This document shows, piece after piece, positions 10,389 through 42,072 of a DNA stretch of 42,072 nucleotides. The DNA lies in contig JAJXZF010000018.1 in NCBI GenBank assembly GCA_021780225.1, forward strand, positions 1 to 42,072, in the 5' to 3' direction. Under the pieces are notes generated by a model. It saw nothing but the letters and a program-made list of their open reading frames with translations. It was not told where the DNA came from and ran no database searches. The first letter of the stretch is position 1. Each line of letters opens with the position of its first letter. Made by a program: the position numbers and the translations under genes. The DNA comes from Deltaproteobacteria bacterium. GTDB taxonomy: Bacteria > Desulfobacterota > Binatia > Binatales > Binataceae.

Positions 10389-10802
10389 ATGCCGCACGGC
10401 GACTGAATCGAGATACGCGGTCAAATCGCCGATATGCGGCGCAAGCCACGGCAGCGGACGCATCAGATGGGTCCCACGCTGAGGATGGTAGCCGGCGGGA
10501 TAGGCGGCGTGCATCACGCGCTCCTCGATCAATGCGCGCGGCGAACCGGCAATCGCGGGCCCGATCGCGCCGGGCAAATTCGGATTGCGATTGTGGCAGG
10601 AGGCGCAATTGGTGCGATAAACGACCTCGCCGCGCTGGACGGCCGAGAGCGTGCGCGGCGGACCGCATCCGAGGATGGCCGCGGCCATCGTAAAGCCCGC
10701 GATCGCGCCCATCAGGGAAACGGCGAGCGCGGCTCGGAGCCGGGCCGGCGCGAGCAGGCGCGCCCGCCAACCTCGCGCTTCCGACAGAATTGTTGCGGGC
10801 AC
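10386..10802 (-). CDS. Cytochrome c-type lipoprotein
   Basis: A 138-residue exported monohaem cytochrome c. Residues 22-46 form a hydrophobic signal ending in ILGC, a plausible lipobox with Cys46. The haem motif CASCH lies at 66-70, and a Met in HLMRPLP is a candidate distal ligand. It would act as a small electron carrier in the periplasm. No obvious redox partner is adjacent; sodB lies upstream, separated by a hairpin. Its stop codon coincides with the end of MITE copy B. Confidence 0.75.
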   Translation of the reverse strand: MPATILSEARGWRARLLAPARLRAALAVSLMGAIAGFTMAAAILGCGPPRTLSAVQRGEVVYRTNCASCHNRNPNLPGAIGPAIAGSPRALIEERVMHAAYPAGYHPQRGTHLMRPLPWLAPHIGDLTAYLDSVAVRH

Positions 10803-10845
10803 GTGAAAAACAGGGGGGGCGGCGATGCGGACCAGCGTGAAGAAG

Positions 10846-10883
10846 CGGCGGGACGTGCGCCCATTCCAGCGCCCGTCCCGCCG
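10846..10883 (-). terminator. Hairpin terminator after sodB
   Basis: CGGCGGGACG (10846-10855) pairs perfectly with CGTCCCGCCG (10874-10883), extended by GCGC on each arm. It begins eight bases after the sodB stop codon. On the sodB strand it is followed by CTTCTT, a weak U-rich tract, so it is a probable intrinsic terminator. Confidence 0.5.
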
Positions 10884-10890
10884 TTGCGCT

Positions 10891-11472
10891 TTACTTCAGG
10901 TTGGCGGCGGCGAAATCCCAGTTGACGATATTCCAGAACGCCTCGACGTATTTGGCGCGCGCGTTGCGGTAGTCGATATAGTACGCGTGCTCCCAGACGT
11001 CGCAGGTGACGAGCGGGGTATGGCCGTGCAGGATCGGGCTGTCGGCGTCATGCGTGCCGGCCACGTCGAGCGCGCCGTCCGCTTTCTTCACCAGCCAGGC
11101 CCATCCGGAACCGAAATGAGTGACGGCGGTGTCGGTGAATTTCTTCTTGAACGCGTCGAAATCGCCGAAGGCCTTCTTGAGTCCGTCGGCGAGCGCTCCC
11201 GTCGGATGGCCGCCGCCATTGGGTTTGAGCGACTTCCAGTAGAAGCTGTGGTTGTAATGCTGCGCCGCGTTGTTGAAGAGGCCGCCCGGACCGGCGCCCT
11301 TCATGATCTCTTCGACCGATTTGTTCTCGTTCGGCGTGCCCTTGGTCAGGTTGTTGAGGTTGGTGACGTAAGTCGCGTGATGCTTGCCGTGATGAAACTC
11401 GAGCGTCTCCCTGGAGATATGCGGAGCGAGCGCGTCGAGGGCATAAGGCAGAGCGGGAAGTTCAAAAGCCAT
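10891..11472 (-). CDS. sodB: Superoxide dismutase, iron type
   Basis: This enzyme converts superoxide to oxygen and hydrogen peroxide. The 193-residue protein has the metal ligands His27, His75 (NHSFYW), Asp158 and His162 (DVWEH). Gln71 in AAQHYNH marks the iron-type active site; manganese enzymes place the equivalent Gln elsewhere. No signal peptide is visible, so it is cytoplasmic. A strong AAGGAAGG lies nine bases before the ATG. It lies upstream of the cytochrome c gene but is separated by a hairpin, so it is probably transcribed alone. Confidence 0.95.
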   Translation of the reverse strand: MAFELPALPYALDALAPHISRETLEFHHGKHHATYVTNLNNLTKGTPNENKSVEEIMKGAGPGGLFNNAAQHYNHSFYWKSLKPNGGGHPTGALADGLKKAFGDFDAFKKKFTDTAVTHFGSGWAWLVKKADGALDVAGTHDADSPILHGHTPLVTCDVWEHAYYIDYRNARAKYVEAFWNIVNWDFAAANLK

Positions 11473-11674
11473 GGCGCATTACCTTCCTTGATTTGGATGC
11501 GGTTGCGCGACGCCGCGCATCAGGACCGAGGAAAAAAGATTAATTCGATCCGAGGCGATCGATCGCCGCGAAGCTGCACGGATTTCCGTGCGGATCGTCG
11601 AAAGTCTAACGCCCGCCAGCGGGCCGGCGCAAGCTCGGACTCGGCGGTCGAGGAGGCCGCAGGACCGACCTTCG

Positions 11675-13117
11675 CTAGCCGCGCGAGGCCGCCGATCCGA
11701 CTACGGCGGCGGCGCCGGCCGCAGCCGCTGCGACGCGGCTGTGAAACCGTCCGTAAAAGAAATAAACGACCATCCCGATAGCCATCCAAACGAAGAAGCG
11801 AATCCAGGTCACGGTCGGGAGGCTCAAGACGAGATATCCGCACGAGATCACGCCCAGAATCGGAACGAGCGGAACCATCGGCGTGCGAAATGGCCGGGGG
11901 CGCGCGGGATCGATCCGGCGCAGAATCCACAAACCGAGGCATACGAGAACGAAGGCGAAGAGCGTGCCAATATTCGCCAGCTCCGCGATTTCTTGAATCG
12001 GCAGCAACGCGGCGGTCAGGCCGACCACGATTCCGGTCAAAGTGGTCGGCCAGTATGGCGTCCGGAAGCGCGGATGAATCCGGCTGAAGACGGGCGGCAG
12101 CAGCCCGTCGCGCGAGATGGCGAAGAAAATCCGCGATTGACCAAGCAAAAGCACCAGCAGCACAGACGTCAATCCGGCCACGGCGCCGACCGATACGATC
12201 CCGGCGACGAAATTAAGGCCCCGCAGCACGAAGGCGGAGGCGAGCGGCGCCCTGAGATCGATCGAAAGCGCCGGAACCATCCCGGTGAGCACGGCGGCGA
12301 CGGCGAGATAAAGCGCGGTGCAGATGAATAACGACGCAAGTATTCCGATCGGCAAATCCCGATTCGGATCGACCACCTCCTCGGCCGCGGTCGAAACCGC
12401 GTCGAAGCCGATATAGGCGAAAAAGATCACCGCCGCGCCGCGCATCATGCCGCTCCATCCGAACGGCAGGAACGGCGACCAATTCGCCGGGCGGATGTAA
12501 AAGACGCCGACCAGGATCACCACCGCGATCGCGAACAGCTTGACGACCACAATCGCCGAATTGACGCGGGCGCTTTCGGAGATGCCAACGAACAGAACCA
12601 CGGAAATCAGCAGAACGATCAGCAACGCCGGCAGGTCCATTTGCATCAATGATCCCGCCGCCGGAGCATGCGTCAGCGCGTACGGCAAATGGATGCCCAT
12701 CCCGTCAAGAATAACCGCCAGATATCCCGACCATCCGACGGCCACCGCCGCCGCGCCAACCGCATATTCGAGCACCAGATCCCAGCCGATAATCCAGCCG
12801 ATCAGCTCGCCCATCGTGGCGTAAGAGTATGAATAGGCGCTGCCGGCGATCGGAATCATCGCGGCGAACTCGGCGTAGCAGAGCGCGGCCATCGCGCAGG
12901 CGAATCCGGCGACGACGAAAGACAGCGTCACGGCCGGACCGGCGAATTTGGCGGCGGCCACGCCGGTCAGCACGAAGATGCCGGCGCCGACGATCGCGCC
13001 CACGCCGAGCAAAGTCAGGTCGAGCGCCCGGAGCGCGCGCTTGAGCCCGCCGGCATGAGTCGCAGCCTCCTCAAGCAGCATCTCCGCCGGTTTGCGTCTA
13101 AAGAGCTGATCCCTCAT
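11675..13117 (-). CDS. APC-superfamily amino acid permease (cationic amino acid transporter type)
   Basis: A 480-residue inner-membrane transporter with at least twelve hydrophobic segments. The first transmembrane segment carries the family signature GVGAIVGAGIFVLTG (about 37-51), where the unwound G-x-G-I-F binds the amino group of the substrate. The stretch YAEFAAMIPIAGSAYSYSY is typical of the YfnA/CAT (cationic amino acid transporter) group. It most likely imports amino acids by proton symport; specificity cannot be read. The gene runs divergently from the mlaC-like gene, with a roughly 200-bp shared upstream region. Confidence 0.85.
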   Translation of the reverse strand: MRDQLFRRKPAEMLLEEAATHAGGLKRALRALDLTLLGVGAIVGAGIFVLTGVAAAKFAGPAVTLSFVVAGFACAMAALCYAEFAAMIPIAGSAYSYSYATMGELIGWIIGWDLVLEYAVGAAAVAVGWSGYLAVILDGMGIHLPYALTHAPAAGSLMQMDLPALLIVLLISVVLFVGISESARVNSAIVVVKLFAIAVVILVGVFYIRPANWSPFLPFGWSGMMRGAAVIFFAYIGFDAVSTAAEEVVDPNRDLPIGILASLFICTALYLAVAAVLTGMVPALSIDLRAPLASAFVLRGLNFVAGIVSVGAVAGLTSVLLVLLLGQSRIFFAISRDGLLPPVFSRIHPRFRTPYWPTTLTGIVVGLTAALLPIQEIAELANIGTLFAFVLVCLGLWILRRIDPARPRPFRTPMVPLVPILGVISCGYLVLSLPTVTWIRFFVWMAIGMVVYFFYGRFHSRVAAAAAGAAAVVGSAASRG

Positions 13118-31724: not shown

Positions 31725-32197
31725 TCGCACTATCCCTCGCGCGCCAACTCTCGATGCGCGGTGTTCGCCGCTACCGTCCGCCAACGCTTTATATCATTCT
31801 TCGGCTACGCCTCAGAATGACAGTTGGAGCCGTGCGCGCCGACGGGCCGAACGCCGAATTGGGCCTGCGCCGATTAGTCATTCATGCGCGTGACTGGCGG
31901 GCGGTTCGCTTGATCCGACCGTGTACCGCATAACACCGGAACGTCATTCGCGGGCTTGACCCGCGAATCCATGCCTTCGCGGCGCTCCGAATGATGCGGG
32001 GCAGAGTCGTCGGGATCGGGCTGGGCAACACGACGCTGCCTCTGCTGCTGCGCGCGATCATCCTCTTGGCGCACGTAACTCCGACGATCGTTCACGGCGT
32101 CATCGCGCTCCGTTTAGCGGTTTCAATTAGGCGCCGATCGGCGCCCAACTAACGATCGCAGCCGTAGCCCGATTCGTTATTCGGTTTCATCGGGCGC
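31725..32197. other. Intergenic region with palindromic repeats
   Basis: No gene is visible in this 473-bp stretch. It holds a hairpin with TCATTCT/AGAATGA arms (31794-31820), a perfect 9-bp-arm hairpin ATTCGCGGG-CTTGA-CCCGCGAAT (31946-31968) of the kind found in dispersed genomic repeats, and a perfect 16-bp palindrome GGCGCCGATCGGCGCC (32130-32145). A 73-codon frame (31874-32095) overlaps the repeat and is probably not real. Confidence 0.5.
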
Positions 32198-33049
32198 TCA
32201 CCCAGATTTGCTCGGTCTACGTTCCATCGCCTCGCGCAACGCTTCGAATTTCTCCAGCCTTTCTCTAACGGGTCCGTCGCCTCCGAGGCTTCCGAAATTC
32301 GACTTTAATTGTTTGACCAGTAAAATTTCCTCGGCTAACTCGCATAGAACCTTTGAATTACTAATGGCTTCGCTCAAAGCCTCCGTCCTATCACGTACAA
32401 TTTCTATTTGGCCCATAATATTATAGGCCTTCTCAATAATAGTAGAATATCCTCTAAACCTTATCAGTTCATCTTCCGAGCATCCAAATTTTTCCGCAAG
32501 GAGTGGGAGAAGCGCTATTCGTTCGCGAAGATCGCCGGGGCTGATTAATCTTCTGACTGGATCTAACAACTCTACAAGTTGTTCTAGCTTTGTCCTGTGT
32601 TCATCGAATTCTTGTCGCTCTTGTTCTGTCCGATTTCTAACGTGAGCCATGCTCTCGAAAGCGGTGCGCAACGAATTAACGGCCGAGCCCAGGCTATCAA
32701 TATCCGGTAAGTCTTCCGTGAACGATTTGCTGTTAGTTAAAGCTTCCCACAGCCTGTCGAGCGCTGCCCTCGCCTTTCCAACGTCTTTCCAGTCTTCAAT
32801 GACAAATAATTCGAAGGAAGTGTAAATTTGCTCTAATGTCGGTTGCACGTACGCGAGAATACGGTATCGCTCGTAGTTTTTTTCGATATCTGTCCAAATC
32901 GCTTCGATTATATGTGCCTGTCCATAGTTTGAGATCCTTGACCGGTAATCCTCAATCATTGGGCGAAGATTAAGTATCTCGCAGCTGAGTCCCCGGAAGG
33001 CTCCAGCCAAATTGCTAATTTCCTGATCCGCCAAAGCGTCTATTCTCAT
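32198..33049 (-). CDS. Uncharacterised coiled-coil protein, AT-rich gene
   Basis: I do not recognise this 283-residue protein. It is almost entirely predicted helix, with heptad-like stretches (about 140-165 and 215-275) and many charged residues. It has no signal peptide, membrane segment or catalytic motif. The gene is clearly lower in GC than its neighbours and uses codons such as TTA, ATA and AGA-type more often, which suggests acquisition from another source. The start is well supported: GGAGGT nine bases before ATG 33049, and on the same strand a TATGAT -10-like element further upstream. It lies between the chromosomal backbone and the tRNA-Arg remnant, so it may belong to an older layer of insertions. 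Confidence 0.65.
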   Translation of the reverse strand: MRIDALADQEISNLAGAFRGLSCEILNLRPMIEDYRSRISNYGQAHIIEAIWTDIEKNYERYRILAYVQPTLEQIYTSFELFVIEDWKDVGKARAALDRLWEALTNSKSFTEDLPDIDSLGSAVNSLRTAFESMAHVRNRTEQERQEFDEHRTKLEQLVELLDPVRRLISPGDLRERIALLPLLAEKFGCSEDELIRFRGYSTIIEKAYNIMGQIEIVRDRTEALSEAISNSKVLCELAEEILLVKQLKSNFGSLGGDGPVRERLEKFEALREAMERRPSKSG

Positions 33050-33370
33050 AGATTACTTACCTCCACGATCACGGACAGTTACGACGAGGACGCGCCTAAT
33101 CTTAATTAAGTATCATAATTCTTTAAAGCTGTTAATACCAAGCCGCAATTGTCTACAATTGTTTGAAGGTTACTGCGCAAAATTGCGGATGGGTGCTGAG
33201 AAAGGACAAAGCGGCGTCATTTCTGACGTTCGTTCTCCGCGGGATTTCGATGTGGCGTTATCGCGTGGTGCAGGCCGCGCGATGTTGGAGTGTTTCCCGT
33301 GTGCCTGTAGCGTGGCGGGCTGAAGGGTGGTTTCGTTTCAGAGAAAATTATGGATAATCTTCCGGCGCGG

Positions 33371-33410
33371 GCGCCCGTAGCTCAACTGGACAGAGCATCG
33401 GACTTCGGAT
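33371..33410 (+). pseudogene. 5' half of tRNA-Arg(TCG), truncated after the anticodon loop
   Basis: The sequence GCGCCCGTAGCTCAACTGGA followed by CAGAGCATCGGACTTCGGAT is the 5' half of a bacterial tRNA-Arg: acceptor arm GCGCCCG, box-A-like TAGCTCAACTGGACAGAGCA (D arm), anticodon stem ATCGGA and loop with TCG. After position 410 the expected 3' strand, T arm and GGGCGC acceptor complement do not appear. Anticodon loops and 3' halves of tRNA genes are standard integration sites, so this is most likely an island junction. GATAAT at 33353-33358 may be its original -10 element. Confidence 0.7.
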
Positions 33411-33701
33411 ACGACCCAGCCGCTTCACGCATCGAGACGCTCCGAGCCTAGAGGCGACAGAAAACCCTTGTGCCGCAAGGGTTTCGCGCATTCCCAGAGA
33501 GTCCGCCGACTCTCGTCGAGTCTCTCGAAATCGACTCGACTCCGGTAAGAAATGCCCAACTTATGCCCAACTCGTTTTGGGCTTTTATCCGATTGAGCAT
33601 CGGACCTGATCCGATGTTCGAGCTCGGCTTCGTGCCCAACCAAAAAAGCGAGATGTGAACTCGGACTTTGAAAAGAAACAACTCATGCGGAGGTGACGCA
33701 A
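33411..33701. other. Att-like region at the island edge
   Basis: The 652-bp gene-free interval 33050-33701 contains the tRNA remnant and, to its right, features expected of an integration junction. These are a perfect hairpin AACCCTTG-TGCCG-CAAGGGTT (33463-33483), the direct repeat ATGCCCAAC at 33552 and 33563 with a third TGCCCAAC at about 33632, and a second GAGCATCGGAC at 33595 repeating the tRNA anticodon-stem sequence at 33393. The short repeats resemble arm-type binding sites of tyrosine integrases. No integrase gene is present. Left of the tRNA (33050-33370) I see only AT-rich promoter-like sequence. Confidence 0.45.
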
Positions 33702-34022
33702 ATGCCTGACTATGCAGCTCGAATCGCAACCCTCAAAACCGAGCAGGCGAAGCTTGCTCAACGTCAATCGGACCTCTCCGGACAGCGGCGCAACGAAATC
33801 GGGCGGCTGGCCGAGAAGCTCGGCGCACTTGAAGCCGAAGACGACGTGCTGGCCGGCCTGTTCCTCGAACTCAAATCCGCGATGGAGAGCGACAGCCCAC
33901 GTCTCAAGCAATGGCGAGACGCGGGCGCCAGGTTTCGTTCTCCTCGGGCTGGACGGCCAAAGCGGTACTCCGCGGATGCTTCGGCGCACGCGAACGGCGC
34001 TGCTTCGCACGGAGGCATGTAG
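33702..34022 (+). CDS. traC: TraC-like conjugal DNA-processing protein
   Basis: A 106-residue, mostly helical protein with a coiled-coil N-terminus (residues 5-45) and a basic, Ala/Gly-rich tail. Its position directly before traD, traG and traA, and its general shape, match TraC of Ti-type (MobQ) transfer systems, which helps the relaxase at the origin of transfer. GGAGGT seven bases before ATG 33702 fixes the start; this is one of the strongest ribosome-binding sites in the island. Assignment rests more on context than on sequence. Confidence 0.6.
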   Translation: MPDYAARIATLKTEQAKLAQRQSDLSGQRRNEIGRLAEKLGALEAEDDVLAGLFLELKSAMESDSPRLKQWRDAGARFRSPRAGRPKRYSADASAHANGAASHGGM

Positions 34023-34029
34023 AGCGCGT

Positions 34030-34233
34030 ATGAGCCACGAAGAACGCAAGCTGGACACTCGCCGCAAGATCGCCATGGGCGGTCTCGTTATCAAAGCCAG
34101 GCTCGACCGCGAGGAGCCCTCGGTCCTGCTCGGCATGCTGATGTCGGCTGCCCGCGTCCTGTCGAGCCCTAACGCCGACGATTACCGGAAGCGCTGGCGC
34201 GAACGCGGCGACGCCGGCTTCAGAGGAGGGTGA
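34030..34233 (+). CDS. traD: TraD-family conjugal transfer protein
   Basis: A 67-residue protein opening with RKLDTRRKIAMGGLVIKA, the recognisable core of the TraD family of Ti and rhizobial plasmids ('R-K-x-x-x-G-G-L-V-x-K-A'), an accessory of the Dtr complex. ATG 34030 lies seven bases after traC, with GGAGG about 13 bases upstream. It is followed three bases later by traG. It is distinct from the coupling protein called TraD in F plasmids. Confidence 0.8.
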   Translation: MSHEERKLDTRRKIAMGGLVIKARLDREEPSVLLGMLMSAARVLSSPNADDYRKRWRERGDAGFRGG

Positions 34234-34236
34234 GTC

Positions 34237-36219
34237 ATGCAGCATCATCTCATTCTGATTCTCGGCTTCTTCCTGGCCGCACTGTCGGCGCTCCTGTTCG
34301 TCAGACAGCTTCGGGAGCACTGGGGCCGCTGGGCCATTCTGATCGACGTCTGGTTCGACCTGATGGTGCTGGCCCGATTGTGCGCGAACGCCTACGTGAT
34401 CCGACTCGCGGACGGCACAGCGTCTCCGTATTGGCGCGCCCTGATTGCCCGCTCGTCCGTGACCGTAGAGGCCGCAGCGCCAGCGCTCTTGCTTCTCGCT
34501 GCGATCGCCCTGCTCGAAGCCGGCATCGTCAGCCGGACGACCATCTTCATCGCCGCAGGCGCGACCTTCGGTTCGGGCCTATTGACCGCGTGGCAAGCGG
34601 TCGCGCCGCTCTTGCCCTACTATCCGCGCTACCCGATCTCGACCCTGATGGCCGCGATCGACCCATACGCTCAGGCCGGTTTCTTCGTTGCCTTCTTCGC
34701 CGCAATCCTCGCGGTTAAGAAAGCGCGCCAGGCTCCGGCAACGCGGCCTCAATGGCAGCGATCACCGTCGAGCCTCCATGGCAACAGCGACTGGATGCCG
34801 ATAAGTGTCGCGCAGCGCATCTTCCAGAAAGGCGGGATTGTCGTCGGCGAAGCCTACCGCCCAGATCGCGATCGCAGGCAGGCCGGCAAGGCGCCGCTTC
34901 TCCGTTACGACGGCAACGCCGGTTCCGGCCACTGCCTCGTCTTCGCCGGATCGGGCGGTTACAAAACCACCGGCGTCGGGATTCCGTCCGCCCTGGAATG
35001 GACCGACGCGCTTGTCTACCTCGACCCGTCAGCAGAGGTCTTTTCGACGGTTCGGGCTGCGCGCGAAGACATGGGCCATCAGGTGATTTCCCTGAACCCG
35101 GAGGACGGGGAAAGCGGCTTCAACGTTCTCGACTGGATCGACATCTCGACCGACCGAAGCCTGATGGACATCCAGGCCGTGGTCGCGTGGCTGGCCGGCG
35201 AGCAGCTGGGCGAGCGCTGGGAAGACTACTTCAAGCACGCGGCCCGAGCGCTCATTGGCTGCCTGCTCGCCGACATCCTTTTCTCGCCAGACCTGGCGCC
35301 CGAGGAAAAGACGCTTGCCCTTTTGCGAAGGCGCGTCGCGCAACCGATTCCGGGGCTTCGGCAGTTCCTGACCGACATCTACGACAAGGGTGAAGCGTAC
35401 GGCTTCGGCTTCCCGGCCCAGCTCGCCGGCAACCTCAAGGACATCACCGAGAAGCAGTTCTCCGGTCTCTATGGCGAGGCCGGCAACATAACGGCGTGGC
35501 TGGCGGTGCCCTCATTGGCGCGCCTGGTCTGCGGGTCGTCGTTCGAGACTCAGGACCTGCTGTCGGGCGACCTCGACGTGTTCATCAACGTTCCGCTCAA
35601 GGTCCTGCATAGCAGTCCGCAAGTGTGCCGAGTGATCGTCGGCGCGCTACTGAATGCCGCTTACGAGGCCCGCGGAAAGATGAACGGGCGGGTTCTGTTC
35701 CTGCTCGATGAGGTCGCGCGGCTCGGCTACATGAGCATCCTCGAGACCGCGCGTGACGCCGGCCGGAAGTACGGAATCAACTTGCTCCTGATGTACCAAT
35801 CGCTCGGTCAGATCACCGCTACATGGGGTGTCCAGGGCCGACAGGCGTGGTTCGATTCATCGTACCTGAAGATGTTCGCCTGCCTTCACGACGTGAACGC
35901 GGCCGAGTTCCTGTCGAAGGCCTGCGGCGACTTCACGGCAGTGTCAGAGGGCTACACCTACGGTTCCGGCACGTCCTCCGGAGCCAGCACGGCCAGGAGC
36001 CGCAGCACACACGAGAGCACCAGCGAGCAGCAGCTCGCGCGCCGTCTGATCAAGCCCGAAGAGATCCTCCAGAACCTTCGTTACGACGAGCAGATCGTCC
36101 TGATTTCCAATCGGCGTCCGTTGCGCTGTGGCCGTGCCATATACTTCCGTCGGGCCGAGATGGTGACCCGCACCGAAACCAACGGATTCCAGCAGTTCAG
36201 CCAAAGAGTGGCGAGGTAG
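34237..36219 (+). CDS. traG: TraG/VirD4-family coupling protein
   Basis: A 660-residue inner-membrane ATPase that links the relaxosome to a type IV secretion channel. Four hydrophobic segments lie in residues 1-160. The motor domain has a Ti-TraG-style Walker A, AGSGGYKTTG (237-246), in which the usual GKT is YKTT, and Walker B in VLFLLDEVARLG. Family stretches LIYLDPSAEVF-like (LVYLDPSAEVF), FNVLDWID and PEEILQNLRYDEQIVLI are present. GGAGGG just before ATG 34237 lies inside the traD end. The matching mating-pair formation genes are not in this window. Confidence 0.92.
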   Translation: MQHHLILILGFFLAALSALLFVRQLREHWGRWAILIDVWFDLMVLARLCANAYVIRLADGTASPYWRALIARSSVTVEAAAPALLLLAAIALLEAGIVSRTTIFIAAGATFGSGLLTAWQAVAPLLPYYPRYPISTLMAAIDPYAQAGFFVAFFAAILAVKKARQAPATRPQWQRSPSSLHGNSDWMPISVAQRIFQKGGIVVGEAYRPDRDRRQAGKAPLLRYDGNAGSGHCLVFAGSGGYKTTGVGIPSALEWTDALVYLDPSAEVFSTVRAAREDMGHQVISLNPEDGESGFNVLDWIDISTDRSLMDIQAVVAWLAGEQLGERWEDYFKHAARALIGCLLADILFSPDLAPEEKTLALLRRRVAQPIPGLRQFLTDIYDKGEAYGFGFPAQLAGNLKDITEKQFSGLYGEAGNITAWLAVPSLARLVCGSSFETQDLLSGDLDVFINVPLKVLHSSPQVCRVIVGALLNAAYEARGKMNGRVLFLLDEVARLGYMSILETARDAGRKYGINLLLMYQSLGQITATWGVQGRQAWFDSSYLKMFACLHDVNAAEFLSKACGDFTAVSEGYTYGSGTSSGASTARSRSTHESTSEQQLARRLIKPEEILQNLRYDEQIVLISNRRPLRCGRAIYFRRAEMVTRTETNGFQQFSQRVAR

Positions 36220-36340: not shown

Positions 36341-38899
36341 ATGGCCATCTACCACTTCACAGCGAAAGTGATCAGCCGGAGCCACGGCCGGAGCGCAGTG
36401 GCGGCGGCGGCCTACCGCTCCGGCTCGAAACTCCACGACTCCCGGCAGGACCTGAACTTCGACTACACGCGGAAGTCGGAGGTGGTATTCTCGGAAATCC
36501 TATTGCCGGAAGGCGCGCCGACCTGGATGGCAAATCGCGAGGCGCTCTGGAATGCCGTTGAGGCCGGCGAGAAACGCAAAGACTCTCAGCTTTCGCGCGA
36601 TACTGAGTTCGCGCTGCCGCAGGAGCTTAGCCGCGATCAGGCAATCGCGCTCGCTCGCGACTTTGTCCGAAGCGAGTTCGTTGCTCGCGGGATGGTCGCC
36701 GACTTGAACCTCCACTGGGAGCCCGGCAATCCGCATGTTCACCTTATGCTGACCATGCGTGAGGTAACGGCGAACGGCTTCGGGCGTAAGGTTACCGAAT
36801 GGAACAAGGTCGCCCTGCTCCGCGAATGGCGCGAACGCTGGGCCGACCTCGCCAACGAACATCTGCTCCGCGCCGGTCACGACGCCCACATCGATCACCG
36901 CAGCTACAAGGAACAGGGCATCGATCTGGAGCCGACCAGCCATCTCGGCAAAGCGGTCGAGGAGATGGAGGCGCGCGGCGCTTACGCCGAGCGCGCGCGC
37001 CAGCTTGAGCAGGTCCGCGAGAGGAACGCGAGACGAATCGAGCGCCGGCCCGAAATCGTGTTTGAGAACCTGACCCGTCAACAGTCCACGTTCCGGTACA
37101 CCAACATGGCCCGCGAAGTTTTCCGTTACATCGACGAGGGCGAGCGCTTCCAGAAGCTGATGACACGCCTCGAAGGCTCTCGTGAGCTTGTGATGCTCAC
37201 GCCGAACGTGATGCGCGGTGGCGAGGTCGTCGAGGCGGCTCACTACACGACGCGCACCATGTTGGCGATCGAAGCGCGCATGGCTGATACGGCTAACGAA
37301 ATGGCGCAAACCCAGAGTCATCCAGTGGGCGGTTCGAGCGTTGAAGCAGTCCTGAGGAAACACAGCCATTTGAGCGAAGAGCAGAGGGAGGCCGTAAGGT
37401 CGATGACGAGTGCGAGACAGATTGAGCCGCTGGCCGGCTCTGCCGGCGCGGGAAAGTCGAAGGCCATTGAAGCCGCGCGCGAGGCTTGGGAAGCCGCCGG
37501 TTATCGCGTAGTGGGTGCGGCACTTTCGGGAATCGCGGCCGAGAATCTGAACCGTGAGAGCGGAGTTGAAAGCCGTACAATTGCCTCATGGGAGCACTCA
37601 TGGCAGCAAGACCGTGAGCGGCTCGACCGGCGAAGCATCCTAGTCATCGATGAGGCCGGAATGGTCGGCAGTCGACAACTTGAACGCGTGTTGTCCGAGG
37701 CAGAGCGCCAGGGCGCCAAGGTGGTGCTCGTCGGCGATGCTGAGCAGCTTCAACCGATTGAAGCCGGAGCGGCCTTCCGCGCCATCGCCGAGCGCGTCGG
37801 GTATCAGGAACTGACCGCCATCCGCCGGCAGCGCGAGCAATGGCAGCGCGAAGCGAGCCGCGACTTCGCGCGTGGCCAACCCTCTCCCGCGCTGGATCGA
37901 TACGAAGCACATGGCGCCATTCGATTCTCGCCGACCAGGGACGACGCGAAGCAGCGGCTGATTGAACATTGGGCAAGGCACCTCGCCGCCGAGCCTGATG
38001 GAAGCGCATTGATCCTCGCGCACACTCGCACCGATGTCCGCGACCTGAACCAGCGCGCGCGACAGGTGCTCAAGGAGCGCGGCCAGCTCGGCGCAGAGGT
38101 TTCGGTCACGGTCACACGCGAGGTGGGCCAGGCGGACGGTACTGTTGTCATGGAGCGTTCAGAACGAATCCTTGCGCCGGGCGACCGCGTGATGTTCCTA
38201 AAGAACAACCGCGATCTCGGAGTGAAGAACGGGTCGCTCGGCACGGTCACCGAGATTACCGCCGACGCAATCGCGGTCCGACTCGATGGCAAGGAAAGGA
38301 AAGAAGTCGAGTTGCGCTTCGCCGATTACTCCGCGCTCGACTACGGGTACGCGGCGACCGTGCACAAGGCGCAGGGCGCCACAGTGGAGCGAGCCTTCGT
38401 GCTGGCAACGCCGGGGATGGACCGCCATCTCGCCTACGTCGCGATGACGCGCCATCGCGAGCAGGCAGAGATCTATGCCAGTTGCGAAGACTTCAACGAC
38501 TTCGAGGCGCTGAGGGATCGGTTGTCACGTGAACGAATGAAGGACACGACCCTAGACTACGCCGACCGCCGCGGCCTCCATGTCGGTGAGGCCGAGGGTC
38601 GCGCTTCTGGAGCCGCTGTGGATCGCGACCCGATCGCGCGTTTCAAAACGGCCCAGCAAGAGTTTATCCGCGTCGCCGGGCGAGCCGATCTTGAGCCTGA
38701 AGCTAAGGCTCGTGCGGCTGAGTTGCGTGCGGAGATGAGCAGCGCCGCCTCGGAGATTGCCACGAATGCTGAGAAGCTGCGGGAGGCCGAGCGCGCCGGC
38801 ATCGGCGGTCAAGTTCGGGATTTGGTCCACCGCGCCAAACGAGAGCGGAGCCTGGGCAAGGGCCAAGAACTGGGGAAAGACGAGGGACTGGAAATGTAA
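36341..38899 (+). CDS. traA: TraA-type relaxase-helicase (MobQ family)
   Basis: An 852-residue bifunctional protein that nicks oriT and unwinds the transferred strand. The relaxase domain (1-210) has AAAAYRSG with the candidate nicking Tyr25, His125 and the metal-binding HVH at 132-134. The helicase domain has Walker A GSAGAGKS (366-373), the DEAG motif in LVIDEAGMVGS, and the RecD-like TVHKAQG near the end. The C-terminus is a charged coiled coil. It is shorter than the about 1100-residue Ti TraA, chiefly lacking the extended C-terminal region. Start ATG 36341 follows an untranslated stretch containing the candidate oriT. Confidence 0.92.
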   Translation: MAIYHFTAKVISRSHGRSAVAAAAYRSGSKLHDSRQDLNFDYTRKSEVVFSEILLPEGAPTWMANREALWNAVEAGEKRKDSQLSRDTEFALPQELSRDQAIALARDFVRSEFVARGMVADLNLHWEPGNPHVHLMLTMREVTANGFGRKVTEWNKVALLREWRERWADLANEHLLRAGHDAHIDHRSYKEQGIDLEPTSHLGKAVEEMEARGAYAERARQLEQVRERNARRIERRPEIVFENLTRQQSTFRYTNMAREVFRYIDEGERFQKLMTRLEGSRELVMLTPNVMRGGEVVEAAHYTTRTMLAIEARMADTANEMAQTQSHPVGGSSVEAVLRKHSHLSEEQREAVRSMTSARQIEPLAGSAGAGKSKAIEAAREAWEAAGYRVVGAALSGIAAENLNRESGVESRTIASWEHSWQQDRERLDRRSILVIDEAGMVGSRQLERVLSEAERQGAKVVLVGDAEQLQPIEAGAAFRAIAERVGYQELTAIRRQREQWQREASRDFARGQPSPALDRYEAHGAIRFSPTRDDAKQRLIEHWARHLAAEPDGSALILAHTRTDVRDLNQRARQVLKERGQLGAEVSVTVTREVGQADGTVVMERSERILAPGDRVMFLKNNRDLGVKNGSLGTVTEITADAIAVRLDGKERKEVELRFADYSALDYGYAATVHKAQGATVERAFVLATPGMDRHLAYVAMTRHREQAEIYASCEDFNDFEALRDRLSRERMKDTTLDYADRRGLHVGEAEGRASGAAVDRDPIARFKTAQQEFIRVAGRADLEPEAKARAAELRAEMSSAASEIATNAEKLREAERAGIGGQVRDLVHRAKRERSLGKGQELGKDEGLEM

Positions 38900-38920: not shown

Positions 38921-38959
38921 TATTTACAGAATTCGCTATATTCACAGACGCAGTGAATA
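38921..38959 (+). promoter_or_regulatory. Operator-like repeats over the start of the AbiE-like module
   Basis: TATTCAC (38939-38945) and GTGAATA (38953-38959) form a perfect inverted repeat with seven bases between, and the right arm includes the GTG start codon. A related direct copy, TATTTACAGA (38921-38930), repeats the left arm TATTCACAGA. TATATT at 38937-38942 could be a -10 element. AbiEi-type antitoxins bind inverted repeats upstream of their own operon, so this is a likely autoregulatory site. Confidence 0.5.
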
Positions 38960-40011
38960 ACGCCGAACAGGTGAAGATCGAAGGTCCTTTCGAGGCTCAG
39001 ACGCTCCGTATCCTGCGCGAGACTCCCGGAATAACCGCTATCCGCCGGGAGCCCAAGCAAGCGAAGAATCACCGGCCTGACGCTATCATTCGATTCGCGG
39101 GGACGCGAGCGACCGTCGCTGCCGAGATAAAACGGCGCGTCAACGCCGCGACAGCTTGGCAGCTCGTCCACAAGGCAGCAGAACATCCCGGCGTCCCCCT
39201 GCTCGTTATAGCCGGTGAGACAACTGCGGAGGCTCGACAGATCCTCCAGAACCACGGTCTAGCCCTCGTCGACGGACTTCGGAATGCCCACATTGCACTG
39301 CCAGGACTCTATTTTCATATCGAAGGGAATCGTCCGCCGCCCCGATTGAAAACCGATGGACCACCGACCCGGCTCAGCGGCAAGGCAGCCGTCGCAGTTC
39401 AGGCCCTCCTCCTTCACACGAACCGTGCATGGCAAGTCCACGATCTTGCCAAGGAGGCGCGGATATCGCCAGCGCTCGCGCACCGTATACTAGCTCGGTT
39501 GGAGGCGGAAGGAATCGTTGCGACCGAAGGTAGCGGGCCAAATCGCGTCCGGCGTGTGAAGAATCCGGCCGCCTTGCTTGACCTGTACGCTGAAGAGAAT
39601 GCGGCGGCGCCGATTCGCACGCCGGTCTACTCCTTAGCCCAGACGCCGCAAGAACTTATCAAAGGATTGGCAACGAATCTCGAACGAGCCGAGATCGAGT
39701 ATGCGGTCACAGGTGCGGCGGCGGCGAGCTTGGTTGCGCCGTTTATCACGGCGATTCCGATCACAGAAGTATGGGTCACTACGAAGAAGGCGCGTGAGGA
39801 ATTGTGCGCCGGCGCTCAGGCCAAGCCCGTAACCGAGGGGGCCAACCTTGTCTTCCTGCAGACGAAGGGGGATACACCGCTTGTTCTCCGCGAGAGGACA
39901 AAGGAGCTTTGGCTCGTCAATCGGTTCCAACTTTACACGGACTTGCGCCGTGATCCCCGTCGCGGCCGGGAACAGGCCGACCATCTTCGCCGGGAGGTCA
40001 TCGGATTTTGA
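38953..40011 (+). CDS. AbiEi-like regulator/antitoxin with N-terminal PD-(D/E)xK-like domain
   Basis: A 352-residue protein. Residues 1-120 look like a restriction-endonuclease-like fold: RPDAII with Asp43 is followed by VAAEIKRR with Glu58 and Lys60 (D-x14-E-x-K), and later ALVDGLRNAHIALPGLYFHI. Residues about 125-185 form a winged helix (VHDLAKEARISPALAHRILARLEAEGIV). The C-terminal part (200-352) is like the AbiEi antitoxin region that faces the nucleotidyltransferase partner. The next gene overlaps by four bases (TTGA). Together they fit a type IV AbiE toxin-antitoxin pair, with this as the antitoxin/repressor. Whether the nuclease-like domain is active is unknown. Confidence 0.65.
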   Translation: MNNAEQVKIEGPFEAQTLRILRETPGITAIRREPKQAKNHRPDAIIRFAGTRATVAAEIKRRVNAATAWQLVHKAAEHPGVPLLVIAGETTAEARQILQNHGLALVDGLRNAHIALPGLYFHIEGNRPPPRLKTDGPPTRLSGKAAVAVQALLLHTNRAWQVHDLAKEARISPALAHRILARLEAEGIVATEGSGPNRVRRVKNPAALLDLYAEENAAAPIRTPVYSLAQTPQELIKGLATNLERAEIEYAVTGAAAASLVAPFITAIPITEVWVTTKKAREELCAGAQAKPVTEGANLVFLQTKGDTPLVLRERTKELWLVNRFQLYTDLRRDPRRGREQADHLRREVIGF

Positions 40012-40865
40012 ATCACCGGGCGCATCGCACCGACTACAATGAACAGGCTACCGCGCGCTGTGAACGCGCTCTTGTGACCCTCTTGGGCGACCTCGGTCCG
40101 TGGCGGGAACGCATTTATCTGGCTGGCGGCCTGGCGCCGCGTTATCTGGTTGGGCAACTGCCCGAAGGAGCGCAGGCGCATGTTGGAACGACCGATGTTG
40201 ACCTGATCGTTGGACTGGCCTTGGGCGATGAGACGTCGGAAACCTATCGGACTCTACAAAACAACCTTGAGAAAAGTGGCTTCGTTCAGAACGGCCCTAG
40301 CTTCAGATGGACCCGCGATGTCGAGGGCGTCTCTGTAGCGGTCGAATTCCTTTGCGAGAGCGATTCGGTTGCGCCCGGTCGTATATTTCGTCCGAAAGAA
40401 TTCACGGGATCGAAGTTTGGGGCGTTCAACGTTCGTGGGGCCCATCTCGCTCGTGAGGACTTCATCGAACGCGAAATTGAAGCCGAGCGCCTCGATGAAG
40501 GAGGCCGATCCCGGATCACTGTCCGAGTGGCGAACGTTCTCCCTTACACCGTCCTGAAGATCTTTGCCTTTCAAGATCGGCACGAGAACAAAGATGCCTA
40601 CGACCTCGGGTTCACTCTCTTCAACTACCAGGGCGGCCCCATCGCGGCAGGAAAAGCCGCGTCGGAGAGTCCCGTGCGAGCGCATCCTCAAGTCGAAGCA
40701 GCTCTTCGGCTTCTCGAAGAGCGGTTTCGAGATATCGCCCAGGATGGCCCCAACGCATATGCCTCTTTTCTCGCTGATCCCGACGATGAAGAAGCGAGGG
40801 CACGGCTACGTCAGGAGGCCGTCGCTATCGTCCGCAATTTCCTGCAGAGCTTTCAGGAGAACTAG
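40008..40865 (+). CDS. AbiEii-like nucleotidyltransferase (putative toxin)
   Basis: A 285-residue protein of the DNA polymerase beta-like nucleotidyltransferase superfamily. The N-terminal GG (YLAGGLAPRYL) is followed by TTDVDLIVGL, giving the DxD metal pair, and by VAVEFL with the third acidic residue. The middle part PYTVLKIFAFQDRHENKDAYDLGF resembles the AbiEii/MNT fold, where conserved Lys and Asp residues position the nucleotide. AbiEii-type toxins add nucleotides to tRNA or other targets and block growth during phage infection. TTG 40008 overlaps the upstream stop, with GGGAGG about 11 bases before it, so translation is coupled. Confidence 0.7.
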   Translation: MNHRAHRTDYNEQATARCERALVTLLGDLGPWRERIYLAGGLAPRYLVGQLPEGAQAHVGTTDVDLIVGLALGDETSETYRTLQNNLEKSGFVQNGPSFRWTRDVEGVSVAVEFLCESDSVAPGRIFRPKEFTGSKFGAFNVRGAHLAREDFIEREIEAERLDEGGRSRITVRVANVLPYTVLKIFAFQDRHENKDAYDLGFTLFNYQGGPIAAGKAASESPVRAHPQVEAALRLLEERFRDIAQDGPNAYASFLADPDDEEARARLRQEAVAIVRNFLQSFQEN

Positions 40866-41183
40866 CACCCACCCGATGGCCAATTAAACGCGCGGCCACA
40901 CGTACGGACCGAATTGATTGATTCTGACGCCGTCCTGCTCCAACGCGAATGAGAGCAGCCGCACTACGTGCCCAGTTGTCTTGGTGCCCAACGCCAAGGC
41001 TGGCGCTCCGTCGTTCTCGGAGCCGAGGCACCGCTAAAGATAAGAACCAAAACGGACTCAATTCTCGCGTATGTGCGATGGTGCTATTTTGTTCATCCGC
41101 GGTCTGGTACGAGAGTTACGAGAATTCTGAACGTCCATTCGCCGCAAGGAGTCGCAGAGGAATACTGAGTTGGGGGATTGAGA
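40866..41183. other. Intergenic region before the ASCH gene
   Basis: In this 318-bp stretch no frame has a ribosome-binding site or recognisable protein. It holds a short tandem, ACGAGAGTTACGAGA (41109-41123), about 60 bp before the ASCH start, which could be a regulator site. Nothing else stands out. Confidence 0.35.
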
Positions 41184-41573
41184 GTGTCGCGATCCAACGA
41201 ATTACGTGCCATATCGGTGCGCCAACCTTGGGCGCACGCCATTCTTCATCTCGGCAAGGATGTCGAGAACAGGCCTATGCGCACCCACTTCCGTGGGCGA
41301 ACCCTTATCCAAGCCGCACTCAGGGTCGAACGTGATGAGGCGCTGAGTTTCAAGCTTGATCCTGACGACCTGCCGACCGGGGTCATCGTCGGCTCTGTTG
41401 AAATTGTCGATTGTGTTCGGAACTCGAAGAGCCGGTGGGCCGATCGTGGGCAATGGCACTGGCTTCTCAAAAACCCGCGCGTCCTGAAAAAACCAATTCC
41501 ACTAAAGGGGAAGCTAGGCTTCATTCGCGTCCCCGATCGGCTGTTGAAGAATGCACGATTCCGCGCGCCCTGA
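41184..41573 (+). CDS. ASCH-domain protein
   Basis: A 129-residue single ASCH domain, a PUA-like fold that binds RNA or modified nucleotides. The signature ISVRQPWAHAILHLGKDVENR at residues 9-29 is typical, as are GVIVGSVEIVDCV and WHWLLKNPRVL. GTG 41184 is preceded by GGGGG at proper distance. Bacterial ASCH proteins may act as ribonucleases, deaminating hydrolases or RNA-binding regulators, and they occur in defence and mobile regions. Here it sits between an AbiE-like pair and a broken restriction-type gene. Confidence 0.8.
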   Translation: MSRSNELRAISVRQPWAHAILHLGKDVENRPMRTHFRGRTLIQAALRVERDEALSFKLDPDDLPTGVIVGSVEIVDCVRNSKSRWADRGQWHWLLKNPRVLKKPIPLKGKLGFIRVPDRLLKNARFRAP

Positions 41574-41681: not shown

Positions 41682-41948
41682 ATGGCAGCGCATCCACTCG
41701 AAGCCTACCTGCGCCAACTGCGCGACATCCGCCGCTCGGGGTCCGCCGTTCCAGAAACTTCGTACTACCCGGCGCTCGCAACACTACTCGACGCGGTTGG
41801 CGCGACACTCAAGCCCAAGGTCCACTGCATCGTGAATCCAAGCCACGGCGCCGGAATTCCCGATATCGGGCTCTTCACGCCAGAGCAGTTTCAGAAAACC
41901 TCAGCCGCTGAACCGTTGCCGGGCACAAAACCGTCGCGCGGGGTCATA
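41682..41948 (+). pseudogene. N-terminal fragment of a restriction-modification-like (N6-methylase) protein, cut by an IS
   Basis: About 89 residues (EAYLRQLRDIRRSGSAVPET, then SYYPALATLLDAVGATLKP and HGAGIPDIGLFTPEQF) match the N-terminal region of large N-6 DNA methylase/restriction proteins, as I recall the family. In these, GAG-x-PD leads to RGVIEVK, a PD-(D/E)xK nuclease site. Here the frame is lost immediately after RGVI, exactly where EVK is expected, and sequence of an insertion element begins. The catalytic lysine and everything downstream are missing in the window. GTG 41664 is an in-frame alternative start; neither has a good ribosome-binding site. Confidence 0.6.
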
Positions 41949-42072
41949 GCAGGCTGTTGATAAACGCCTGAATTTCGTTTCGGTATAGTTCGTCGAAATG
42001 AGTAATCCAGTCGGCGGAGGAACGGGCGCATGCGCGGCGAGGAGCGGCGGCAGCGGGCGATGCTGATGATTA
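41949..42072 (+). mobile_element. Left end of an insertion sequence (partial)
   Basis: At about 41949 the restriction-type gene breaks into AGCAGGCTGTTGATAAACGC, which looks like an IS terminal inverted repeat, followed by a short leader and the start of a transposase frame at 42030. The exact boundary may be off by a few bases because the right end and the target duplication lie outside the window. Confidence 0.55.
42030..42072 (+). CDS. Transposase N-terminus (partial)
   Basis: ATG 42030 with AGGAACGG upstream opens a frame that runs to the edge, encoding MRGEERRQRAMLMI. The 'M-R-G-x-x-x-R-Q-x-x-M-L' opening is familiar from DDE transposases of the IS5/IS1182-like group, in which it precedes a conserved 'D-H-P-L-R' region. 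Only 14 residues are visible, so the family is provisional. Confidence 0.5.
   Translation, partial: MRGEERRQRAMLMI

Follow-up and report, generated by a model that had tools for sequence, protein, structure and literature searches.

What does a tRNA gene that stops one base past its anticodon loop, at the very edge of a conjugative-type island, say about how that island came to be there? The case at hand lies in a 42,072-nucleotide stretch of a Deltaproteobacteria bacterium (contig JAJXZF010000018.1 of assembly GCA_021780225.1; called the window below), which is the whole of contig C6 of genome G000 (3.80 Mb, 118 contigs, completeness given as 96.86). The original prediction had marked a half tRNA-Arg(TCG) at 33371-33410 of the plus strand, and it was correct to the base: the 40 nucleotides are identical (40/40) to positions 1-40 of an intact tRNA-Arg(TCG) gene of the same genome, with the first mismatch at position 41. 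That intact gene, which the original prediction had proposed to look for, lies uninterrupted on the minus strand of contig C67 (C67:62742-62818), and its presence rules out that tRNA-Arg(TCG) was lost or dead. The genome search gave one full copy and one 5' fragment of tRNA-Arg(TCG), besides weaker tRNA matches, of which those read with ARAGORN are tRNA-Arg(ACG) on C34 and tRNA-His on C47. At up to three mismatches, the window has a single occurrence of the 40-mer, against 0 expected from 100 shuffles. No tRNA was called in the window by ARAGORN or Rfam (gathering scores), and the folding of 33371-33500 is unremarkable (z -1.47; 17 of 200 shuffles equally good). The genome holds an intact tRNA gene together with a terminal fragment of the same tRNA, one of the marks of an Islander-class island, and the orphan half is best described as the displaced fragment at an attachment site.

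Why, then, should a bare 5' half stand beside the island? It is very probable that an element with Ti-type tra genes integrated into the tRNA-Arg(TCG) gene by means of a tyrosine integrase acting at the anticodon loop, and that the element carried the 5' half of the gene with it. What carries this reading is the 40-bp repeat itself, an integrase gene at the 5' end of the intact tRNA, the host promoter on the stump, the host flank on the intact tRNA, a 25-bp repeat near both ends, and islands of opposite handedness in relatives with the same crossover. The integrase would have recombined the attP of the element with the anticodon loop of the host tRNA-Arg(TCG). The 5' half from the element and the 3' half from the host would together make the complete tRNA on the integrase side (C67:62742-62818), and the host promoter with the host 5' half would have been displaced to the tra side (33371-33410). 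The original prediction rightly saw a conjugative-type island to the right, where TraD, TraG and a Ti-type TraA are encoded, and it regarded the junction as abnormal, i.e. a dead gene, a lost restoring segment or a chimera, with the displaced 3' half to be sought at the other end of the island. This part found no support. Even with three mismatches allowed, the window does not contain the first 20 nucleotides of the tRNA 3' part, counted from position 32; no 3' fragment of tRNA-Arg(TCG) is listed elsewhere in G000 by the genome search, and the handedness is the reverse. As the element would carry the 5' half and rebuild the tRNA at its far end, a lone 5' half is just the product to be expected; the usual 3'-half handedness had been assumed.

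The other end lies on C67. The 431-aa open frame P0001 encodes a tyrosine integrase (Phage_integrase, PF00589, 6.2e-23; Arm-DNA-bind_2, 8.5e-13), and its gene points toward the intact tRNA and stops 45 bp before the tRNA 5' base, so that an integrase gene adjoins the intact tRNA on the island side, within the interval, as in Islander islands. The residues R243, R350, H373 and Y383, which we take to be the catalytic ones, are invariant in all six aligned sequences. P0001 has the catalytic domain, the conserved residues and the intact frame that mark a tyrosine integrase, and it would be the enzyme that carried out the integration. A 25-bp direct repeat composed of two TGCCCAAC units 11 bp apart is 100% identical near both ends: the units stand 106 and 95 bp before the tRNA at the integrase end, and 143 and 154 bp past the stump in the window (33550-33574, plus strand). 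The motif occurs seven times in the window against 0.86 expected, three of the seven lying at 33553-33640, the last of these at 33633-33640, and three times on the C67 end against 0.20 expected, two of the three in the 25-bp repeat. Since related integrases at tRNA-Ser and tRNA-Gly show, by eye, other motifs at the same 11-bp spacing between integrase and tRNA, the TGCCCAAC repeats are read as candidate arm-type sites of the integrase. Beyond P0001, toward the contig end, C67 encodes an AAA ATPase, a protein with a weak HSDR_N match, a BrnA-type antitoxin and ArdC. On contig C8 of G007, relatives of the TraG and TraA genes of the window lie 1.6 kb from a 94-aa fragment of ArdC with 82% identity to the one on C67, a proximity that is only suggestive of a tie between both ends and one element. 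The two contig pieces would be parts of one element whose middle lies outside the assembly.

The position of the crossover follows from the fragments on both sides. The 5' fragment ends at position 40, the 3'-half fragments left by islands of the usual handedness (G003, G009) have tRNA position 32 as their first base, and since positions 32-40 (ACTTCGGAT, 33402-33410 on the plus strand of the window) are the sole overlap, they form the inferred crossover interval, i.e. the 7-nt anticodon loop and its closing pair. These bounds were taken from the tRNA-Arg(TCG) fragments. The interval placed in this way fits the anticodon stem-loop, described as a core site with a 7-bp overlap in a review (PMC8371274).

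The host flanks were compared over the last 50 bp upstream of the tRNA or stump in 28 pairs, with 1000 shuffles each. The upstream sequences split largely into two groups. The window stump goes with G001, G003 and G004 (0, 0 and 0 of 1000 shuffles as good), which also match one another (G001-G003 0, G003-G004 1 and G001-G004 8 of 1000). The second, element-type group comprises the intact copy on C67, G006 and G005 (C67-G006 0 and G006-G005 0 of 1000), with G002 as a weaker member (18 with C67, 20 with G006 and 6 with G005). Between the window and this second group, 592 shuffles were as good with C67, 165 with G006, 973 with G002 and 339 with G005. The host promoter region that now precedes the orphan half (33325-33367, plus strand) shares 81% identity over 43 bp with what precedes the tRNA in G003 and has, by eye, the -10-like box GGATAAT; a promoter scan of 33100-33760 did not call this region and lists other sites only. 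Downstream, the proteins encoded on C67 past the intact tRNA recur past the tRNA in G001, G003, G004, G005, G006 and G022. A relative with an unoccupied site, sought as an added test, is provided by G004, in which the host-type promoter, the intact tRNA and the C67-type downstream flank are contiguous and lie in one piece. In G003 the parts are ordered as in G004, apart from an intervening ordinary 3'-half island. G000 has them apart, with the stump preceded by the host-type promoter and the intact tRNA followed by the host downstream flank, a separation explained by site-specific integration of an element carrying the 5' half.

Two side observations concern these flanks. In G001 (L044, G001:C380 ~10,680-12,110), about 1.4 kb of extra DNA lies between tRNA-Arg(TCG) and the conserved downstream flank and is perhaps the remnant of another insertion. 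L049 (G005:C53) and L051 (G022:C20), which belong to two genera, show 100% identity over the 2,500 bp that precede tRNA-Arg(TCG); because of this identity across genera, and as G022 has a second tRNA-Arg(TCG)-like gene, binning contamination is likely.

Integration of this kind would alter what each copy is read from. Element DNA, including an integrase gene that points at the tRNA, would stand before the restored copy where the original promoter had been. Because element DNA replaces the host promoter, transcription of the restored tRNA must then begin in element DNA, and read-through from the integrase gene would be its likely source. The evicted host promoter would point at traD, the start of which is 302 bp past the stump with one weak hairpin between.

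A number of observations weigh against the reading set out so far. A simple promoter scan called nothing sigma-70-like before the restored tRNA, a result that says little since the host promoter region escaped it as well. Of the upstream pairs, C67-G005 is insignificant (132/1000), and one pair across the groups, G001-C67, is low (9/1000). G002 has a different flank downstream of its tRNA, in which the C67 proteins do not recur, and no displaced 5' fragment was found for it in the genome listing or in C4:1-120,000. G005 has element-like upstream sequence, and no integrase or displaced fragment was found there. Left of the promoter, the window flank matches only G001 (31,999-32,119, 121 bp, 73%), in which the patch lies at a roughly corresponding distance from the tRNA, and the upstream stretch of G004 (1.9 kb) has no match to the window. 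The link through G007 is a single fragment at a contig start, and the TraG of G007 is in pieces. The pieces on C6 and C67 are unjoined, C67 ending in unique sequence and C6 in a multi-copy repeat, which explains the gap on the C6 side; Islander places both ends on one replicon in the same orientation and 2-200 kb apart with the island between them, and here they sit on two contigs. Finally, the sole VirB4/TrbE match of G000 adjoins another coupling protein on contig C53, so that self-transfer of the island is no more than a possibility.

The fact that no contig joins C6 and C67, with a multi-copy repeat at the end of C6, would also agree with two elements at the same tRNA, e.g. in tandem with the middle lost. 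We consider this improbable, as only one 5' fragment and one intact tRNA-Arg(TCG) were found in G000, the 25-bp repeat is common to both ends, and an ArdC fragment lies near TraG/TraA in G007; the handedness would be unchanged in either case. A chimeric assembly, in which unrelated sequences were joined through the 40-bp repeat, could draw on the occurrence of that repeat in both C6 and C67 and on the 118 contigs of the assembly. However, the sole alternative pairing of the flanks would give host promoter, tRNA and host flank in a row plus a closed element junction, which is the excised state of the same element, and the left end of the island carries the 25-bp repeat of the integrase end, as expected of an attachment end. 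A chimera is therefore very unlikely.

The two remaining explanations dispense with integration. The window by itself holds only half a gene, and a deletion or partial duplication without site-specific integration might have truncated it, but the break falls at the anticodon loop, a known site of tyrosine integrases, and an integrase abuts the 5' end of the intact copy. The flank comparison, too, speaks against truncation, as host promoter and host flank are separated in the way that integration predicts, and we regard the chance of such an event as negligible. Just as far-fetched is a split or intron-bearing tRNA with its 3' half downstream, in favour of which nothing speaks except the truncated form: the window yielded no 3' half at up to three mismatches, none is listed elsewhere in G000, and an uninterrupted tRNA-Arg(TCG) exists.

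With integration of an element carrying the 5' half as the preferred reading, the left end of the island, from 33411 to 33711 on the plus strand, is the outer attachment arm up to traD, without a tRNA 3' half and with the repeated motif. A terminator-like hairpin followed by TTTTA (33565-33582, plus strand) lies between the orphan half and traD; it is weak, overlaps a candidate arm site, and compares with 0.8 expected in shuffles (1 found). The genes that follow are all on the plus strand. A TraD-like conjugal transfer protein (33712-34233) scores above the cut-off with Pfam TraD (3.7e-17) and below it with the NCBIfam TraD model. TraG, a VirD4-like coupling protein (34237-36219), matches Pfam T4SS-DNA_transf (5.3e-90) and NCBIfam NF010394 above the cut-off, and TIGR02767 (TraG-Ti) with 486 bits, below the cut-off of 686. 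TraA, a Ti-type relaxase/helicase (MobA/MobL, MobQ; 36341-38899), reaches 947.7 bits with NCBIfam TIGR02768 (cut-off 590). Three more open reading frames without family assignment occupy 38953-41335 (38953-40011, with a weak winged-helix match; 40008-40865; and 40949-41335). The contig stops at the end of the multi-copy repeat, probably an insertion sequence (41947-42072, no strand assigned); with 40 of 67 candidates scored, at least 12 further near-identical copies lie on other contigs, at least six of them starting at base 1 of a contig.

The pair of relaxase and coupling protein that characterizes an integrative and conjugative element is present as TraA_Ti and TraG, and the island has the traD, traG and traA families in common with Ti-type conjugation genes (TIGR02768, NF010394). 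It differs from these in that the genes lie in a tRNA-bounded island, and no mating-pair (type IV secretion) genes were found on its assembled parts, the middle of the island lying outside the assembly. A second, separate conjugation cluster (L207-L208, G000:C53 ~45,830-61,090) encodes a DUF3363 protein, a coupling protein, T2SSE (VirB11-like), VirB3 and VirB4/TrbE, with ORF6N, SEC-C and TIR-domain genes past the conjugation genes. This cluster as the missing middle of the island is unsupported, since it has a coupling protein of its own.

Left of the stump, the window is not simply the left flank of the tRNA: only 31,999-32,119 and 33,325-33,367 match the upstream side of the tRNA in relatives. 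The window up to ~31,725 is joined in G004 to C67 from 40972 onward, and its continuation in G002, G005 and G020 is C67 from ~42,540-42,960. In G003 and G007 the block runs up to 31,818 and 31,706, respectively, with no C67 match afterwards in the stretch compared, and in G012 it is arranged otherwise. In G000 the block instead adjoins the upstream side of the tRNA. An inversion or similar event, with breakpoints in window 31726-31999 and near 40,972 of C67, probably moved it there; the two breakpoint regions compared with each other gave chance-level matches only. The stretch 31750-33370 has 51% G+C, against 63% left of it and 61% in the island, and within it an open reading frame (32198-33049) has a weak sensor-domain match below the curated cut-off.

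How common is this handedness? Integrases like P0001 are rare among the genomes searched, with 6 of 41 genomes of the order (E up to 1e-60), 3 of 148 of the class (1e-80) and 1 of 395 drawn from the phylum (1e-60), G000 included in each. The plasmid and phage collections gave integrases below 60% identity only (130/130 and 1150/1150 records). Among named genomes, no relative was confirmed when P0001 alone served as the query; an alignment-based scan did confirm relatives. The tRNA fragment search ran over 148 genomes from the class and scored at most six candidates in each, matches being listed down to E ~2e-14; among the matches listed there are six 3' fragments (G003, G009, G047, G134, G138 and G143) versus one 5' fragment (G000). 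The G047 fragment starts where a contig ends and may reflect a break in the assembly; a weaker 3' fragment is also present in G034. We further surveyed 79 loci with P0001 relatives, the best of 210 confirmed, for a tRNA within 700 bp of the integrase 3' end. A tRNA was adjacent in 29 loci and none in 50. With respect to the nearest tRNA, 28 of the 29 integrases face its 3' end and one its 5' end, and this lone locus (L114) was taken as the G006 contig, a relative of the window element. L131 has a second tRNA 665 bp off in the opposite direction, and L120, a distant integrase relative (31%), sits at tRNA-Arg(TCG) with the usual handedness.

An island with a 5' fragment belongs to a known class, uncommon in handedness and ordinary in mechanism. 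The Islander account counts 3,760 islands with a 3' fragment and 159 with a 5' fragment among 3,919, and names anticodon-centred sites as one of its subsites (PMC4383910). The present island resembles the 5'-fragment islands in the tRNA restored at one end, the 5' fragment at the other and the integrase aboard; it differs in that its ends are on two contigs, and the comparison is with the class total rather than with an individual island (PMC4383910). According to a review, restored bacterial tRNA genes use the original promoter with very few exceptions, and the pTN3-like archaeal elements, which combine a 5' half with an integrase promoter, have a layout seldom met in bacteria (PMC8371274). 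The pTN3-like elements of Thermococcales likewise restore an uninterrupted tRNA gene, there expressed from the integrase promoter, but they are archaeal, whereas here a bacterial integrase with Arm-DNA-bind_2 is combined with Ti-type tra genes (PMC8371274). In ICEKp1, the tRNA terminator is displaced on integration, and int is driven from the tRNA promoter (PMC13023037). Both cases change what the host tRNA promoter reads into; in ICEKp1 it is int, whereas here the promoter faces traD, and its driving of traD is only a possibility.

Closer to the window, the 3'-half islands of G003 and G009 use the same tRNA-Arg(TCG) gene and the same anticodon-loop crossover, but it is the 3' half that they carry, and the 5' side stays where it was. 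The G003 integrase has Arm-DNA-bind_3, and that of G009 is ~24% identical to P0001. The G003 island (L046, G003:C19 840-19,864) encodes DUF499, DUF1156 and helicase/NOV_C proteins (Pfam), a gene set which, in our impression, resembles a defence cluster.

Other relatives carry what may be later states of the window arrangement. The arrangement recurs in G006, where the contig stops after a 57-aa integrase end that is 88% identical, and upstream of the G002 tRNA lie fragments of a related integrase, scattered over several frames, i.e. a decayed arrangement. Element-type sequence stands upstream of the tRNA in four of seven genomes of the genus (G000, G006, G002 and G005), and, judged from these sequences, the remnants in G006, G002 and G005 look like promoter replacements that have outlived the element; the reverse, that the element captured such a host promoter, may hold but is not favoured. 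A wider scenario is offered tentatively and is, as a whole, rather unlikely: a group of integrases otherwise carrying the 3' half would have flipped its handedness through a near-palindromic anticodon stem-loop taken up inverted, and would repeatedly have replaced the host tRNA promoter, the swaps outlasting decayed or lost elements and the evicted promoter facing, and maybe driving, the tra genes.

These results indicate that an apparently broken gene is very probably what integration of the rarer handedness normally leaves behind, and they caution against taking a bare 5' tRNA half at the edge of an island, by itself, as evidence of misassembly. Opposite-handed elements at one tRNA gene in close relatives, with the same crossover and with unoccupied, occupied and decayed states, make a compact natural comparison, through which changes of integrase handedness, and the fate of a tRNA gene that has had its promoter replaced by an element, can be put to the test.
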